A DNA stretch of 64,000 nt from Burkholderiaceae bacterium (lineage in GTDB: Bacteria > Pseudomonadota > Gammaproteobacteria > Burkholderiales > Burkholderiaceae_C), in assembly GCA_019234815.1 (NCBI GenBank), contig JAFALA010000090.1, forward strand, positions 46,857-110,856, in the 5' to 3' direction. Each line of letters begins with the position of its first letter. Within the stretch, counting starts at the first letter, position 1. Below are positions 13,550 through 21,380 of the stretch, piece by piece. The translations under genes were made by a program, and so were the position numbers. A model generated the notes under the pieces. The model saw only the letters and a program-made list of their open reading frames with translations, did no database searches and had not been told where the DNA came from.

Positions 13550-13676
13550 GAAAAGTGCTTTCTGAAACCGTAGCGAGCGGCCCGCAGCGCCCGCGAGGAG
13601 CGGAGCCGTACGAGCGTACGGTGAGCACCACAGCGGGAGTTCCGGGTTGCGCAGCAGGTTTCTGGAAGTACTTTTC
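13550..13676. repeat. 127-bp imperfect centred palindrome between convergent genes (REP/terminator-like)
   Basis: Outer arms gaaaagtgctttctgaaacc / ggtttctggaagtacttttc (17/20 complementary); perfect core CCGTACG-AG-CGTACGG at 13606-13621 exactly at the centre. Confidence 0.75.
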
Positions 13677-15540
13677 AGTGCTGCAGCGTGTAGACGCGGT
13701 ACAGCGCCGCACCCGCCAGGATGGCCAGCACCAGCAGCACGTAGGGCCAGCGTGAGGGCTTCTCGGCGTAGGGGTCTGACATCGAACGCTGCGCATTGGC
13801 GGGCAAGGTGGCCAGCTGCGTCAGCGAGGTGCCGAACGGGATGTTGATGCGCGCCCGCGCATTGATGGCCCAGCCGTTGGCATCGAGGATGGGTCCCAGG
13901 TTGCGGCTGCGCAGCTTGAACCAGGCCAGCAGCACGGCGGGGCCGGAAATGACCAGCATCACGCCCACCACGGCCAGCGGCAGCTGCCACCACTTGAGCG
14001 CGAACAGGCCCGTCATCATCGAGGCCAGCGCGGTGCCCAATGCGCCGACCGCCAGCCCCAGGGCCGCGAAAATGCCGGCGAACTTGCCCACGTCGAAGGT
14101 GCTGGGGCCGGCAGCGGGCTTGGCACCGGCCTCGGCCTTGTGCGCCACGTCGGCTGCGGCAGCATTCAAGCCATCCTGCGAGGCCTTGGCCTTGCTGGCG
14201 GCGATCTTCTGCATCTGCTCGCCCATCAGGCGTGCGACCTGCTTGTAGGGCGACCAGAAGGCCTGCCGCAGGCTGATCGGATGCTCGACGAGCTTGATGA
14301 TGGTGGCGTCCCAGTCGCGGCCCTGGCGGTCGTAGAACACGCCGTTGCGGCCCACCATCAGCTGGTCGGCGTCGCCGGCCGTGAAGGCGGCGGCAATGGT
14401 CTGCTTCTCGGCACCGCGCGTGCAGGCGCAATAGACCAGGCAGATACGCGCCAAGCCCGCCAGCGCGCCATGCTTGGCCGCGTCGGCGGCCGACACGCAC
14501 AGATCGCATGAGCGGCCGTCCAGGTACAGGGTGCCGAGCTGGAAGGTGGCCTTGCCTTGGCCGGTGTAGAAATCCTTGAAGGCGACGAAATTGTTGGCCA
14601 GCGAGTGCAGGTCGCGGACATAGCGCGAGAGCCGCTCCAGCTCGCGCACGCCGTCGCCCACCGAGGCTGGATCGGGCTTGCCGGCCAGCCAGCTTGCGTA
14701 AGGCGCCATGGCCGTGCGGATGGACTCCCAATCGGCAGCGCTGATCTGTTCACGCTCGCCCAGCAGAGGCTGCACCAGGACATCCTTGAGCTGCACCAAT
14801 GCGGCGGACCAGGCCGGGTTGCTGCCCGGCCCCAGGGGCAGCCGCGCATCGGCGGCGATATGGGCCAGCGGCAGGCGCGCCAGGGAGCTGGTGTCGCTCA
14901 GCACGGCCTGCTGCGCGAGCAGCTTGAAATCGTCGAGCGAGGCATTGAGCGCTTCGCTGGCCTGCGGGTCGAAGGCCGCCAGTTGGCAGCGCAGGAAGAA
15001 ATCATTGATCTTCTCGGCCACGGCCGTCATGGAGGCATGCGCATCGGCAGTGGCTTCGCCCAGCACCTGGGCATCGGCGCCGGCCGCTTCCCAGTCGGCC
15101 AGGGCCTTGGCGGCATAGACGGCCTGCGCGGTGCTGGTCTCCTCGACCGTGAGCAGATCGGATTCGGTCTTGCCCACCTCGGCGGCGACGGCCAGCGCGG
15201 CGGCATGGATGCGGGCGCCCTCCTCGTCGTCGGTCCGGATCGCCGATATCGGCACGCCCGCCACATGCTGGGTCAGCACATGGTTGTTGCTCAGGCGCTC
15301 ACCGGCCCACTTCACCGCGGCGATCAGCTCGGGAGCGCGCACCTGGCCGTCCGCGTCGGCGTCGATGAACTCCAGGGTCCGGCTGTCGAACTCGATGCCC
15401 TTGACCGGACAGGACAAGGCCACCCAGAGTTTCTGGTCGAGCTGGTCGATGGCCAGCAGGTCGGCGGCCGTGTCGAGCCGGACTTGGTCAAAACCGCCAG
15501 CGAGGAAGAACCGCCATTGATGCGAAGCGCCCATGCTCAT
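13675..15540 (-). CDS. hypothetical membrane protein with EF-hand loop
   Basis: MSMGASHQWRFFLAGGFDQ...; canonical EF-hand loop DADADGQVRAPE; C-terminal hydrophobic helices; RBS-like agaggaa before ATG 15540; 621 aa. Confidence 0.75.
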   Translation of the reverse strand: MSMGASHQWRFFLAGGFDQVRLDTAADLLAIDQLDQKLWVALSCPVKGIEFDSRTLEFIDADADGQVRAPELIAAVKWAGERLSNNHVLTQHVAGVPISAIRTDDEEGARIHAAALAVAAEVGKTESDLLTVEETSTAQAVYAAKALADWEAAGADAQVLGEATADAHASMTAVAEKINDFFLRCQLAAFDPQASEALNASLDDFKLLAQQAVLSDTSSLARLPLAHIAADARLPLGPGSNPAWSAALVQLKDVLVQPLLGEREQISAADWESIRTAMAPYASWLAGKPDPASVGDGVRELERLSRYVRDLHSLANNFVAFKDFYTGQGKATFQLGTLYLDGRSCDLCVSAADAAKHGALAGLARICLVYCACTRGAEKQTIAAAFTAGDADQLMVGRNGVFYDRQGRDWDATIIKLVEHPISLRQAFWSPYKQVARLMGEQMQKIAASKAKASQDGLNAAAADVAHKAEAGAKPAAGPSTFDVGKFAGIFAALGLAVGALGTALASMMTGLFALKWWQLPLAVVGVMLVISGPAVLLAWFKLRSRNLGPILDANGWAINARARINIPFGTSLTQLATLPANAQRSMSDPYAEKPSRWPYVLLVLAILAGAALYRVYTLQH

Positions 15541-15596: not shown

Positions 15597-18416
15597 TCAG
15601 TCGTAAACAGACCTCTCGGCCCGACGCGCCAGCACTGCGATCGGCGGTGCCCAGCGGTCGCCGCGCGGCTTCTTGCTGGTGACCAGCGTGATCTCGGACG
15701 GTTCGAACACCTCGACGTTGTGGGTGATGGGCGTGGTCAGCAGGTACTGCGCACGGGTGCTGCGCAGGAAATGGCCGACCAACTGGATGTTGCGCACGTC
15801 CAAGTGGGCAAACGGTTCGTCGATGAAGACGAAGCCGCCCGCGCTCTCGTCGTCCTTCATCAGGGCCACCAAGAGGATCAGGCTCTTGAGCACCTGCTGG
15901 CCGCCCGAGGCCTCGCCGTCGTTGAGGCCCACGTCGCCCTTGCCGTCGAAGTTGAACTTCACATGCAGGCCGGCCTGGGCCAGCACCATGTCGTCGTTGT
16001 CCAGGTGCGGCAGTTCGGCCAGCGCGATCACGCCGGCGAGTTCGCCGAGGTCCTGTACGTTCTTCTTGTAGCGGCGCACCGTGGCGCGCAGCACGTCGAT
16101 GTAGCGCTCGCGGGCGTTGAAGGCGGCGATGCGCGCCATCTCGTTGCTGGCCCGGCGGTCGTCGAGCTGGGTGCTCTGCTCCAGCACCGACACCGTCATG
16201 CGCGCATGGCGCTCCTGCACCTGCGGATCGGTCTCCCAGACGCCGGTGTCGAGCTCCTGCTGCACATGGCGCATCGCGATCTCGGCCTGCTTGGCGTTCT
16301 CGAACTCGTCGCGCAGGGCCTGGACCTTGGCCGGCTGCACCCAGGCGGCCGGGAAACCTTCGCGCGCCTGGCGCGAGGCCTTGGAGGCCTGCGCCAGGTC
16401 TTGCCGGCGGCCGTCCTGCTCGCGCTGGATGCGCAGCACGTTCTCCTCGCTGCCCTTGAGGCCTTGCTGGGCGGACTCGTAATCGCGCTCGCTGCGGGTC
16501 GCTTGCGTGAGGCTGCGGTCGTGCTCCTGCTCCAGCGCGCTCATGCGCGAAGCGGCCTCGACGCGGGCCTGGCGCAGCGCCGGCATACGGGCGCGGCACT
16601 CGGCGAATTCGTCCGAGCGCTCCGACAGCTCGCGCGCGGCCTTGTGGCCCTGCGCGGCGCGCTGCGCGTCCTTGAGCTGGCGCTCGACCTCGGCCTGTTC
16701 CTTGGCAATGCGGCTGAGCTCGCCGTCGTAGCGGGCCAGCTCTGACTCCAGGGCCTTGCGCCGCGACTCCAGCGCCGACACGCCGAACTGGAAGTCGCGC
16801 GGCTCGACCCACAGGCTGCGGCCGCCGCGGCCGTCGCGGTAGTAGGCGTCCGGCGTGATCCATTCGCCGCCGGCCTGCGCGCCCTGCTCGGTGTCCTTGA
16901 CGCAGCGGATGCTGGCCAACTGGCGCAGCAGCCAGCCCGGCAGCCTGGCGTTGATCTTCAGGGCCGCCAGCAGCGAGTCCTTGGGCAGGGAGGACGGCGC
17001 ATGTTCGGCGTCGGCCACCACGTAATGGCGGTAGCGTTCCTTCGCGGCCAGCGCAAAGGCGCGGCTCTCGTCGCCGGACTTGGCCAGCACCACCACCCAG
17101 CGCGAGGGGCGCAGCAGGCCTTCGGCGGCGGCGCGCCAGACCTCGTCGGCGATGTCGATGCAATCGGCCAGCACGTGGTGCGCGATGCCGGCCTCGTCGA
17201 GCGCGCGCCGGAAGCGCGTCACCTCGGGCGGCGGCGGCGGCAGGCGCTGGCCGCTGAGCGCGTCCATGGCGGCCTGGGCCTTGCGGCTCTGATCGTTGGC
17301 GCGGGTGAAGCTTTCGCGCAGCGCATGCTGGCGCCCGCTCAGCTCCTCCAGGCGCTGCGTCAGCTCCTGGGCGTCGGCTTCGACGGCGGCCAAGGCACGC
17401 AACTCCTCCTCGCGCTTGGCCAGCAGCTCCATCGGGCGCTCGGCTTCGCGCGCGGCGTCGAAAGCCATGCGGGCCTGCTTGCGCTGCGCTTCCAGGTCGA
17501 CGAGCTTTTGCTTGGCGGCTTCATGCGCGTTGAACAAGGCCAGCAACTCGGCGCGCTTGCCCGCCATGTTGCGCTGGTCGTGCGCCGCAAACAGACGCTG
17601 GCGATGCAACTCTCGCAGCGACTGGGCGGTGCGCTGGCGCGACTCGCTCCACTGGAGGACCGGCAGCACCTCGGTGGCGAGCCGCTCGCGCTCCTTCAGG
17701 CGCAGCTGGTACTGCTGGTAGCTATTGACGCGGTTGGACAGGTCCGAGAGCTGGGCCTGCGTGTGCGAGAGCTCCTGGCCGGCCTGCTCGACTTCCTTGC
17801 TGAGCTGCTGCTGGTGGCTGCGGGCCTGGTCGTAGCGGTCCAGAACCTCCTGGTCGCCGAACACCTCGAACACCAGGCGCAGCAGGTCCTTGGGGCTGAG
17901 CTCGCAGAGCCGGTCGGTCTGGCCCTGCTCCAGCGCCAGCACGCGGCCGATGGCGCGCGTGAGGCCGGCGGCTTCGAGGCGCTTCTTCCAGGCCTCGATG
18001 CCCATCCAGTCCTTGTCGCCGCGCAGGGCCAGCGCTTCGATCTCGTGCACGCCGTCGAGCAGTTGGTAGCGCCGCTGCCAGTCGCCGCCGTGGCGCTCGA
18101 TGCGGCAGACCAGGGTCACCTGGTCTGCATACAGTAGCGAGCTGGCGAACGGGCGGCTGGAATTCTGCCGCGCACGCGGACGGTTATCCACCAGGGCGCG
18201 CAGCCAGGCCGTCTCGGCGTTGGCGTGGCGCGCATAGGTCTTGTAGGTGCGGCCGCCCGAGCACTCCAGGCCCAGCAGGGTGCGCATGGCATCGAGCAGC
18301 GTGGTCTTGCCCGAGCCGTTGGGGCCGGCGATGGTGATGATGGCGCCGTCCAGCGGCATGGAGACGCGCTGGCAGTAGTCCCAGTGCAGTAGTTCCAGCG
18401 ATTGCAAATGAAACAT
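15597..18416 (-). CDS. SMC/Rad50-like ATPase (MukB/MksB/JetC-type)
   Basis: Walker A AGPNGSGKTTLLDAM at N-terminus, long charged coiled-coil regions with a hinge-like middle, C-terminal signature SGGQQVLKSLILL and Walker B GFVFIDEPFAHLD; 939 aa from ATG 18416. Confidence 0.85.
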   Translation of the reverse strand: MFHLQSLELLHWDYCQRVSMPLDGAIITIAGPNGSGKTTLLDAMRTLLGLECSGGRTYKTYARHANAETAWLRALVDNRPRARQNSSRPFASSLLYADQVTLVCRIERHGGDWQRRYQLLDGVHEIEALALRGDKDWMGIEAWKKRLEAAGLTRAIGRVLALEQGQTDRLCELSPKDLLRLVFEVFGDQEVLDRYDQARSHQQQLSKEVEQAGQELSHTQAQLSDLSNRVNSYQQYQLRLKERERLATEVLPVLQWSESRQRTAQSLRELHRQRLFAAHDQRNMAGKRAELLALFNAHEAAKQKLVDLEAQRKQARMAFDAAREAERPMELLAKREEELRALAAVEADAQELTQRLEELSGRQHALRESFTRANDQSRKAQAAMDALSGQRLPPPPPEVTRFRRALDEAGIAHHVLADCIDIADEVWRAAAEGLLRPSRWVVVLAKSGDESRAFALAAKERYRHYVVADAEHAPSSLPKDSLLAALKINARLPGWLLRQLASIRCVKDTEQGAQAGGEWITPDAYYRDGRGGRSLWVEPRDFQFGVSALESRRKALESELARYDGELSRIAKEQAEVERQLKDAQRAAQGHKAARELSERSDEFAECRARMPALRQARVEAASRMSALEQEHDRSLTQATRSERDYESAQQGLKGSEENVLRIQREQDGRRQDLAQASKASRQAREGFPAAWVQPAKVQALRDEFENAKQAEIAMRHVQQELDTGVWETDPQVQERHARMTVSVLEQSTQLDDRRASNEMARIAAFNARERYIDVLRATVRRYKKNVQDLGELAGVIALAELPHLDNDDMVLAQAGLHVKFNFDGKGDVGLNDGEASGGQQVLKSLILLVALMKDDESAGGFVFIDEPFAHLDVRNIQLVGHFLRSTRAQYLLTTPITHNVEVFEPSEITLVTSKKPRGDRWAPPIAVLARRAERSVYD

Positions 18417-19171
18417 CAGTCGGCTCGCTCGTCTTGTTGTTCTTGCGGTGCGGGGGTTTCGTCCAATTCGGGCTCCAGGTCCAGCTCGCCCGGACGGGCC
18501 ATGGCGTCGCGCAGCGCGTGCGCCAAGGTCGGATCGGTGCTGCGCGCCAGCACGTCGGCCAACGCGCCGTCGAGAATGCGCGGCGCCAGCGTGTCGTAGT
18601 CGAGCAGCAGATCGAGCAGCGGGCCTTCGGCGATGTCTTCGCCGCGCCGGATGATGAAGCCGTTGCGCTCCAGCAGCTTGAGGTTGGAGTCCAGCCGCAT
18701 CTTTTTGCCCAGCTGGTTGCCGAAGTCGGCCAAGAGGCTGCGGTAGCTCAGCGTGGGCGAGACGCTGGCGGCCAGCGGCAGCGGCTTGTCGGTGGCGAAC
18801 ATCTCGCCCTGCCCGGCTTCCTTGGCGTCGGCGCGCGCGACCTGGCGCTGCCGCTTGGGCAGCACGATCAGTGCCCACAGCACGACCAGCAGGGCCACGC
18901 CGTCGCGCGGCAGGTCCAGGTTGTTGTTGGCGGCCAGGCCGGTTTCGCCGAACACGGCCGTCTCGGCGGGGCGCAGCATGGCGACGCTGATGTGGTCGGC
19001 ATAAAGGTTGTCGACCACGCGCAGGCCCACGGCGGCGAGGCGGTCGCCCAGGGCGGCCCAGAGCTCGTTGTCGATCAGGGCGCGGCGCACCATCGCATGG
19101 TTGCGCGGCAGCCAGCGGCGGGCGATCAGTTGCGCGGCCAGGTGGGCCGCGTCGTCCAGGGTGTTGCTCAT
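18416..19171 (-). CDS. KITE-like (MukE/MksE/JetB-type) winged-helix subunit
   Basis: ISVAMLRPAETAVFGETG...LPRDGVALLVVLWALIVLPKR...LLADFGNQLGKKMRLDSNLKLLERNGFI winged-helix-like pattern; 1-nt overlap (TGATG) with SMC gene. Confidence 0.65.
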   Translation of the reverse strand: MSNTLDDAAHLAAQLIARRWLPRNHAMVRRALIDNELWAALGDRLAAVGLRVVDNLYADHISVAMLRPAETAVFGETGLAANNNLDLPRDGVALLVVLWALIVLPKRQRQVARADAKEAGQGEMFATDKPLPLAASVSPTLSYRSLLADFGNQLGKKMRLDSNLKLLERNGFIIRRGEDIAEGPLLDLLLDYDTLAPRILDGALADVLARSTDPTLAHALRDAMARPGELDLEPELDETPAPQEQQDERAD

Positions 19172-20535
19172 GATGCTTTGGATTCGGTATCAGTGGACGA
19201 GGCGTTGGTAGGTGCATCTACGCTGCGCAGCAAGCCGCGGCTCATCCAGGCGACGAACTCGTCGTCGGTCTCGCCCTGCTCGGCCGACCAGTGCACGCGC
19301 CAGGGCTGGCGCGCCATGTCGCCGGTCGCGCCCTGCAAGTGCTGGGCCTGCGGATCGCCGAGCAGCGGCAGCAACTGGGCGCGGTAGGAGGCGCGCGCAT
19401 AGCTGTGGCCCAGCACGGCGGGCGCTAGGTCGTTTTCGGTCACGCCGGCGTCGGCCCAGGTCTGCAGCAGCACCTGCATGGTGCCCATGTCGGGCGGCAA
19501 CTCCATCACGGCCAGCTTGCCTTCGGGTGCGGGCTGGCCCTTGGGCAGGGGCGCGGGCTCTTCGGCCTGCGGCCGGTCGCGTTCGAATTCGGCCTCGGCG
19601 GTGTCCAGCAGTTCATGCTGAGACACCAGCACCGGCAGCACCGGGCGCGACAAGGCGCCCAGCGAGAGGTTTTCCAGGAAGGGCACGTTCTGCAGCCAGC
19701 GCCGCACGTCGGTGGTCGTGATGCCGGTGGAGCCCAGCGTGACGCGCTGGCGGTCGACCTGCTGCAGCGCACGGTTGAACTGGCTGGCCATGGCCAGCAG
19801 CCGCGCCTGCGCCAGGCCCAGCTCACGCGCCAGGCGCTCGAGCTTGGCATTGCCGTCGGCCTCGGCCTGCTCGATGATGGCCGACAGCGCATCACCGGCC
19901 CGCTCGACCAGTTTGAGCGCGCGCTCGAAACGCTGGCGCGCACGGCGCAGATGGAATTCGGAACCGCTGGCGATTGCATCGGCGAACTCGTCGTACAGGC
20001 GCGCCAGCTGGGCTTGCAGATGGTGCAGTTGCGCCGGGTCCAGCGTGCCAAGCTGATGCGCGCCGGTGACATTGGCGAGCAAAGCGGCCAGGTCGGCATC
20101 CTGCCCGTTGGACAGGCCCAGCGGCGACAAAATGCCGATCAGCTGCTGCGCCAGCGGCGTGATGGCGTACTGCTGGTTGGAGCCGTCCCAGGCCAGCAGA
20201 TCGGCCTCGCGCAGGCGCTTGAGCACCAGCTCCAGCGCCTCGTCGCGCAGCATGTGGAAATGGCGGTTCAGCGTGTCGCGCGGCAGGCGCGACTCGGGCA
20301 AGGCCATCAGCTCCATGAACACCCACAGGCGCAGCCGTACCAAGGCCGCCGGGCCGTGGAACAGCGCCCGCAACGCGTTCAGCAGCGTCTCGTTGCGCTC
20401 CAGCTGCCACCACAGCAGCGCCTCGCCGGGCGCGGCGCCTTCTCGAAAGTAGTCTTCGAAGCGGGTGGTGTCCTGCTCGGCCACCAAGTTGTCGGGCGCT
20501 TCGCCGGCGCCTCTTGTGTCGTCATACGCGGTCAT
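19168..20535 (-). CDS. kleisin-like (MukF/MksF/JetA-type) subunit
   Basis: N-terminal winged helix RDTLNRHFHMLRDEALELVLKRLREADLLAWDGSNQQYAITPLAQQL, long helical middle, 4-nt overlap (ATGA) with next gene. Confidence 0.6.
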   Translation of the reverse strand: MTAYDDTRGAGEAPDNLVAEQDTTRFEDYFREGAAPGEALLWWQLERNETLLNALRALFHGPAALVRLRLWVFMELMALPESRLPRDTLNRHFHMLRDEALELVLKRLREADLLAWDGSNQQYAITPLAQQLIGILSPLGLSNGQDADLAALLANVTGAHQLGTLDPAQLHHLQAQLARLYDEFADAIASGSEFHLRRARQRFERALKLVERAGDALSAIIEQAEADGNAKLERLARELGLAQARLLAMASQFNRALQQVDRQRVTLGSTGITTTDVRRWLQNVPFLENLSLGALSRPVLPVLVSQHELLDTAEAEFERDRPQAEEPAPLPKGQPAPEGKLAVMELPPDMGTMQVLLQTWADAGVTENDLAPAVLGHSYARASYRAQLLPLLGDPQAQHLQGATGDMARQPWRVHWSAEQGETDDEFVAWMSRGLLRSVDAPTNASSTDTESKAS

Positions 20536-20579: not shown

Positions 20580-21380
20580 TCAGGAGAACAGCTTCCAGAG
20601 GCGCGTCTCCAGGAACCAAGGAGGCAGGCGACTCGATGCAAGCCTGATGCTTTCAAAATCAGTCACTTCGGCGAGCAATTTGTGTTTGGAGCCCGAGTTG
20701 TCAAAGATATAGGCCCGATGCGCCAACTCGCAGGCCCGAGTCATCAGGTCGATCGACTTGCGATACCGCTCGATGACTTTGCTGTCATCAACGGGATGCC
20801 CGCCCTGCAACACACGCCGCCGCACCCGGTCAATATTGATTTCAGGATCGTCTGTCGCCACGAAGTAAAGATAGACGCGATAACCGCGCGACCTGGCCTC
20901 CCTCATGAAATCGATCTTCGACGCATGGGACATCACCGTCTCGAACGTGAAGGTCTGTCGCGCCCTGAGCAGTTCGTGGCGGACGGCGTCTGCCAGTGCG
21001 GCGGCCAGGTACGAGTCGTAAGGACCTGGCACATGGAGCGTCATGCTCTTGTCGAGGGTCATGCCCGCGAGCAAAACTGGCAGATTGAGTCGCTTTTCAA
21101 AGCCCGAGGTACTGAGGCTCTGTTTGATCCGTTCCAGCACCTTGCCTGCCACACCGCGAACGCGACGTTTGCACAAGTCCAGACGCCCCTGCGTTGCCTT
21201 GAGCTCGCGCTCCATCTCGTCGGCGTTGACGAACGTACCTATCCACTGGGGCTTGAGGTCGAGCATGATTGTGCTCTTACCTGAGCCGTTGGGTCCGGCA
21301 AGAATTCTCAGACGCGGTTGCGCCTGCCGGGTCACCACGGGCCTGACGGTCCTACCGTCGCCCGCCGATTTACTTGACAC
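20580..21380 (-). CDS. zeta-toxin / COG4185-type P-loop kinase, putative toxin
   Basis: RLRILAGPNGSGKSTIMLDLK, FVNADEMERELK, FTFETVMSHASKIDFMREARSRGYRVYLYFVATDDPEINIDRVRRRV. Confidence 0.85.
   Translation of the reverse strand: MSSKSAGDGRTVRPVVTRQAQPRLRILAGPNGSGKSTIMLDLKPQWIGTFVNADEMERELKATQGRLDLCKRRVRGVAGKVLERIKQSLSTSGFEKRLNLPVLLAGMTLDKSMTLHVPGPYDSYLAAALADAVRHELLRARQTFTFETVMSHASKIDFMREARSRGYRVYLYFVATDDPEINIDRVRRRVLQGGHPVDDSKVIERYRKSIDLMTRACELAHRAYIFDNSGSKHKLLAEVTDFESIRLASSRLPPWFLETRLWKLFS

Follow-up and report, generated by a model that had tools for sequence, protein, structure and literature searches.

An EF-hand membrane protein encoded next to an SMC operon belongs to a free-standing, uncharacterised family

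The 621-aa protein encoded at positions 13675-15540 on the minus strand of the window (the whole analysed stretch of 64,000 nucleotides) belongs to an uncharacterised family of free-standing membrane proteins with an EF-hand. Its gene adjoins those of an SMC complex by accident and in this genome alone, which reflects no conserved partnership. We regard it as highly probable that the family is real and independent of SMC. A preliminary description of this DNA, which did not give the strand, had ascribed to the product a textbook EF-hand loop, a long helical body and three hydrophobic C-terminal segments, and had linked it to a neighbouring SMC ATPase. The frame and these features, as well as the nature of the neighbour, are borne out by the results presented below, whereas the link is not.

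The gene and its EF-hand loop

The open reading frame starts with an ATG at 15540, directly 5' of which a purine-rich stretch is found. The features assigned to it are as follows.

13675..15540, minus strand: EF-hand membrane protein, 621 aa (open frame; homologues in at least 127 loci; no gathering-level Pfam match)
15328..15363, minus strand: EF-hand loop DADADGQVRAPE, residues 60-71 (ligand pattern conserved among homologues; predicted helix-strand-helix)
14281..14535, minus strand: strongly conserved beta-rich domain, about residues 336-420 (strands of the model; conserved residues)
13909..14091, minus strand: predicted transmembrane hairpin, about residues 484-544 (family-averaged hydropathy and predicted helices)
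13765..13905, minus strand: conserved segment after TM2, residues 546-592 (RNLGPILDANGWAINARARINIPFG...; mean column entropy lower than in any other region)
13681..13749, minus strand: predicted third transmembrane helix, about residues 598-620, sequence unconserved (hydropathy and predicted helix)

The pattern DxDxDGxxxxxE occurs in 0.04% of composition-preserving shuffles of the 621-aa protein and is therefore not attributable to chance. The preliminary description had chosen the conservation of the acidic loop residues in orthologues as a test of its claim, and conservation is what we observe: of the 127 homologues which cover the loop, 125 retain the pattern of acidic ligands at loop positions 1, 3, 5 and 12 (D60, D62, D64 and E71), the two deviating members being L174 and L197. 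Position 1 as well as position 5 is occupied by Asp in 126 of these sequences, position 3 by Asp in 122 and by Asn in four, and position 12 by Glu in 125 and by Asp in two, while positions 2, 4 and 7 are variable. The pattern persists in homologues down to about 41% identity, and in the homologue alignment the loop acids belong to the best-conserved acidic residues of the whole protein. Judged from this alignment, fixed ligand positions combined with variable positions 2, 4 and 7 are what is to be expected from metal ligation. Such a pattern shows a metal site, although it does not separate a sensing from a structural role. Binding of Ca2+ by the loop appears plausible, yet affinity and selectivity are uncertain since most members, including the window's protein, possess one canonical loop only and position 9 is, unusually, an Arg in 124 of the 127 homologues.

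In the AlphaFold model the loop region consists of a helix (residues 53-59), a strand (66-68) and a second helix (69-82) with pLDDT values above 90, so that helix-loop-helix geometry with a short strand within the loop is present in the predicted structure. The protein thus shares with the Pfam families EF-hand_1/5/6/7 the 12-residue loop with acids at positions 1, 3, 5 and 12, the flanking helices and, in its model, the strand at loop positions 7-9. It differs from them in its weak scores, its single canonical loop, the Arg at position 9 and the unclassified membrane architecture in which the loop is embedded. None of the Pfam EF-hand profiles matches the window's protein (P0001) itself, while EF-hand_6 is weakly matched by nine of 55 members (best value 0.013). 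In a sequence-profile search against the PDB the family profile touched, at residues 54-91, an EF-hand protein (2aao; E value 0.5), which can be taken as a hint only.

The longer homologues (n = 59) contain two inserts not present in the window's protein, one of which carries the motif FNGDGVV.P and resembles an additional loop of the EF type. In the homologues L175-L214 this additional EF-like FNGDG loop is located in an insert before residue 143. By this comparison the window's protein, which lacks it, represents the shorter type within the family.

Membrane part and topology

An AlphaFold model based on 97 homologues reached a mean pLDDT of 91.4 and a pTM of 0.80, compared to a pLDDT of 79.5 for an initial model based on 55 homologues. 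After the EF-hand the model shows a helical body up to about residue 319. The subsequent beta-rich domain harbours the invariant or nearly invariant residues D341, R343, H357, C373, R398, D409 and W410. A zinc site formed by C345, C348, C371 and C373 was considered and is not claimed, as near-invariance is seen at C373 only. A long helix (residues 424-467) lies between this domain and the membrane region, for which helices are predicted at residues 484-514, 517-544 and 598-620. Hydropathy averaged over 128 homologues peaks at 480-518, 504-545 and 595-621, i.e. the three hydrophobic C-terminal segments recur family-wide and are predicted to be helical at the places formerly assigned to them. 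Conservation is highest within segment 546-592 and the beta-rich domain and lowest within the last helix. A search with the C-terminal part returned mainly frames of full-length size, and we therefore do not propose a separate C-terminal domain.

No hydrophobic N-terminal signal is present in the 621-aa protein, and segment 546-592, taken to be cytoplasmic, carries a net positive charge, the stretch after TM2 being strongly basic (K+R 4.85 versus D+E 1.0). For these two reasons the large soluble part, including the EF-hand, most likely resides on the cytoplasmic side, a topology derived from charge and hydropathy only.

Relation to the SMC operon

Upstream of the EF-hand gene the window contains, at 15597-20535 on the minus strand, a three-gene Wadjet/MksBEF-like operon without JetD:

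15597..18416, minus strand: SMC-type ATPase, JetC/MksB-like (SMC_N in Pfam, 8e-15; Wadjet JetC in PADLOC, 1.7e-25)
18416..19171, minus strand: KITE-like subunit, JetB/MksE-like (weak matches to DUF4194, 0.003, and JetB, 0.004; synteny with SMC)
19168..20535, minus strand: putative kleisin-like subunit in the JetA/MksF position (conserved operon place only; no convincing family match)

A Zeta-toxin-like protein (20580-21380, minus strand; Pfam Zeta_toxin, 4e-11) is encoded between parC and the gene at the kleisin position; at the related parC-SMC loci examined no such gene was detected. The SMC gene ends 56 bases upstream of the EF-hand gene on the same strand and no terminator is predicted between them, so that co-transcription is possible in this genome.

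This arrangement was not found at the other loci and genomes compared. At none of 80 homologous loci (the best 80 of at least 533 relatives), the flanks of which are in some cases short at contig ends, was an SMC, KITE, kleisin, parC or zeta-like gene detected nearby. Among 301 genomes of the same taxonomic family the EF-hand gene is present in 50 (one of them by a weak match which leaves the result unaffected) and SMC in 53. Both occur together in eight, compared to about 8.8 expected (Fisher p = 0.84), and co-occurrence with the SMC operon, by which the preliminary description wished its proposal to be judged, is hence at chance level. Only in the window do the two adjoin. In the other seven genomes the two genes lie on separate contigs, except in G443, where about 370 kb separate them. 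Conversely, SMC operons 85-88% identical to that of the window lack the EF-hand gene. The relatives L218, L220 and L221 show parC, kleisin, KITE and SMC in the same order without it, and in L217, L224 and L225 the SMC gene faces gluQ-lysR at a distance of 2.7 to 6.3 kb, again without it. In L217 other open frames lie in the gap between SMC and gluQ. The stretch which separates the SMC operon from gluQ is therefore variable, and the position of the EF-hand gene within it accounts for the adjacency to SMC in the window. Given the missing SMC neighbourhood at the 80 loci, the chance co-occurrence and the related operons without the gene, the idea that calcium sensing is coupled to a condensin-like complex is not supported. 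While the three neighbouring genes are of the same kind as Wadjet JetABC or MksBEF, the EF-hand gene is, by operon presence and co-occurrence, not a component of such a system and should not be annotated within this operon. A functional partner could not be derived from gene order either, as the neighbours of homologues elsewhere are many different genes which change with the lineage and include no shared partner.

Proposed role and alternative explanations

The explanation we favour, a free-standing inner-membrane protein facing the cytoplasm which binds Ca2+ and responds to it independently of SMC, appears to us somewhat more probable than its negation; we do not rate this combined explanation higher because we only infer the regulatory role. 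The N-terminal EF-hand would bind Ca2+, and occupancy of the loop would shift the helical body. This shift may be passed via the long helix to the membrane hairpin and segment 546-592, which would form the working part, and the protein would act through its own membrane domain. Both the signal transfer and the topology are assumed in this scheme, and the protein may in this way serve as a Ca2+-responsive regulator at the membrane. A more specific version, according to which the proteins constitute an undescribed inner-membrane family whose cytoplasmic EF-hand acts as a sensor of intracellular Ca2+ and thereby drives a membrane domain with an experimentally unseen fold, is put forward tentatively.

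It might be argued that the EF loop is structural, permanently holding Ca2+ (or Mg2+) or stabilising the fold of a protein whose function is unrelated to calcium signalling. The single canonical loop, the conserved Arg at position 9 and the even stronger conservation of the beta-rich domain and of the segment after TM2 agree with this view, which we nevertheless consider rather doubtful as the metal-ligating positions are specifically kept while positions 2, 4 and 7 vary, an observation that by itself does not tell sensing from structure. A periplasmic large domain, whose EF-hand would sense or buffer extracellular Ca2+, has a precedent in some bacterial EF-hand proteins, for instance Caulobacter CaBP, which is described as periplasmic (PMC13171946). 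The lack of a signal sequence and the positive charge after TM2, however, render this topology improbable. Even less credible, and in our view very improbable, is the notion that the protein serves the SMC complex as an accessory subunit which is anchored in the membrane, responds to Ca2+ and replaces the fourth gene, JetD. The appeal of this notion stems from the close, terminator-free spacing on one strand and from the more remote SMC operons of the family, some of which show a JetD match (PADLOC about 1e-13; Pfam DUF2399) directly 3'. Such a JetD-like fourth gene lies directly downstream of the SMC operon in L159, L163, L165 and L162. The EF-hand gene occupies the position of a JetD-like nuclease in some relatives, and no match to this JetD was found in this genome (G000) or in several relatives. 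For MksBEF, loss of JetD has been proposed (PMC10586767). Yet the EF-hand gene is missing from every other SMC operon examined, including those 85-88% identical to the window's, no homologue lies near SMC among the best 80 of at least 533 relatives, and co-occurrence does not exceed chance.

Family identity and distribution

Bacterial cytoplasmic calcium signalling is poorly understood and few sensors have been named. The present family of membrane proteins, which is widespread and whose EF-hand loop hardly varies, is a concrete candidate. EfhP of Pseudomonas aeruginosa, likewise a bacterial EF-hand protein, is much smaller and simpler than the protein of the window. Binding of Ca2+ and a part in mediating Ca2+ regulation have been reported for EfhP (PA4107), which has two canonical EF-hands (PMC9132961, PMC4053335), our comparison being one of descriptions only. 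Searches of the open-licence literature, which covered SMC/Wadjet as well as EF-hand proteins of bacteria, revealed no description of the present family.

The window's protein yielded no match in Pfam or PADLOC and a sub-threshold match in NCBIfam. Since weak matches below the curated cut-offs were all that these three collections provided, no family was assigned from them. Matches to XopAW in three members were taken as EF-hand cross-matches. A sequence search of the PDB revealed no significant relative of the family, and fold searches with two models against the PDB, and with the better model against viral structures, gave no whole-chain match with E < 0.001, a result which single domains can escape. 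A phage or mobile origin was likewise dismissed, as viral contigs contained no relative and plasmids one short partial match.

Homologues were collected from species genomes (the best 80 of at least 533 relatives) and by whole-genome searches. The family is scattered through Pseudomonadota and occurs in 13 of 399 sampled genomes of the phylum, three of which lie outside the class of the window. In one homologue, L210 (G051), an in-frame TAA divides the gene into two frames, which could be due to a broken gene or to a sequencing error. Finally, a 746-aa frame contains a stretch, L236 (G740:C531:2441-2692), which is distantly homologous to the C-terminal membrane part (33% identity), a similarity which suggests a wider superfamily.
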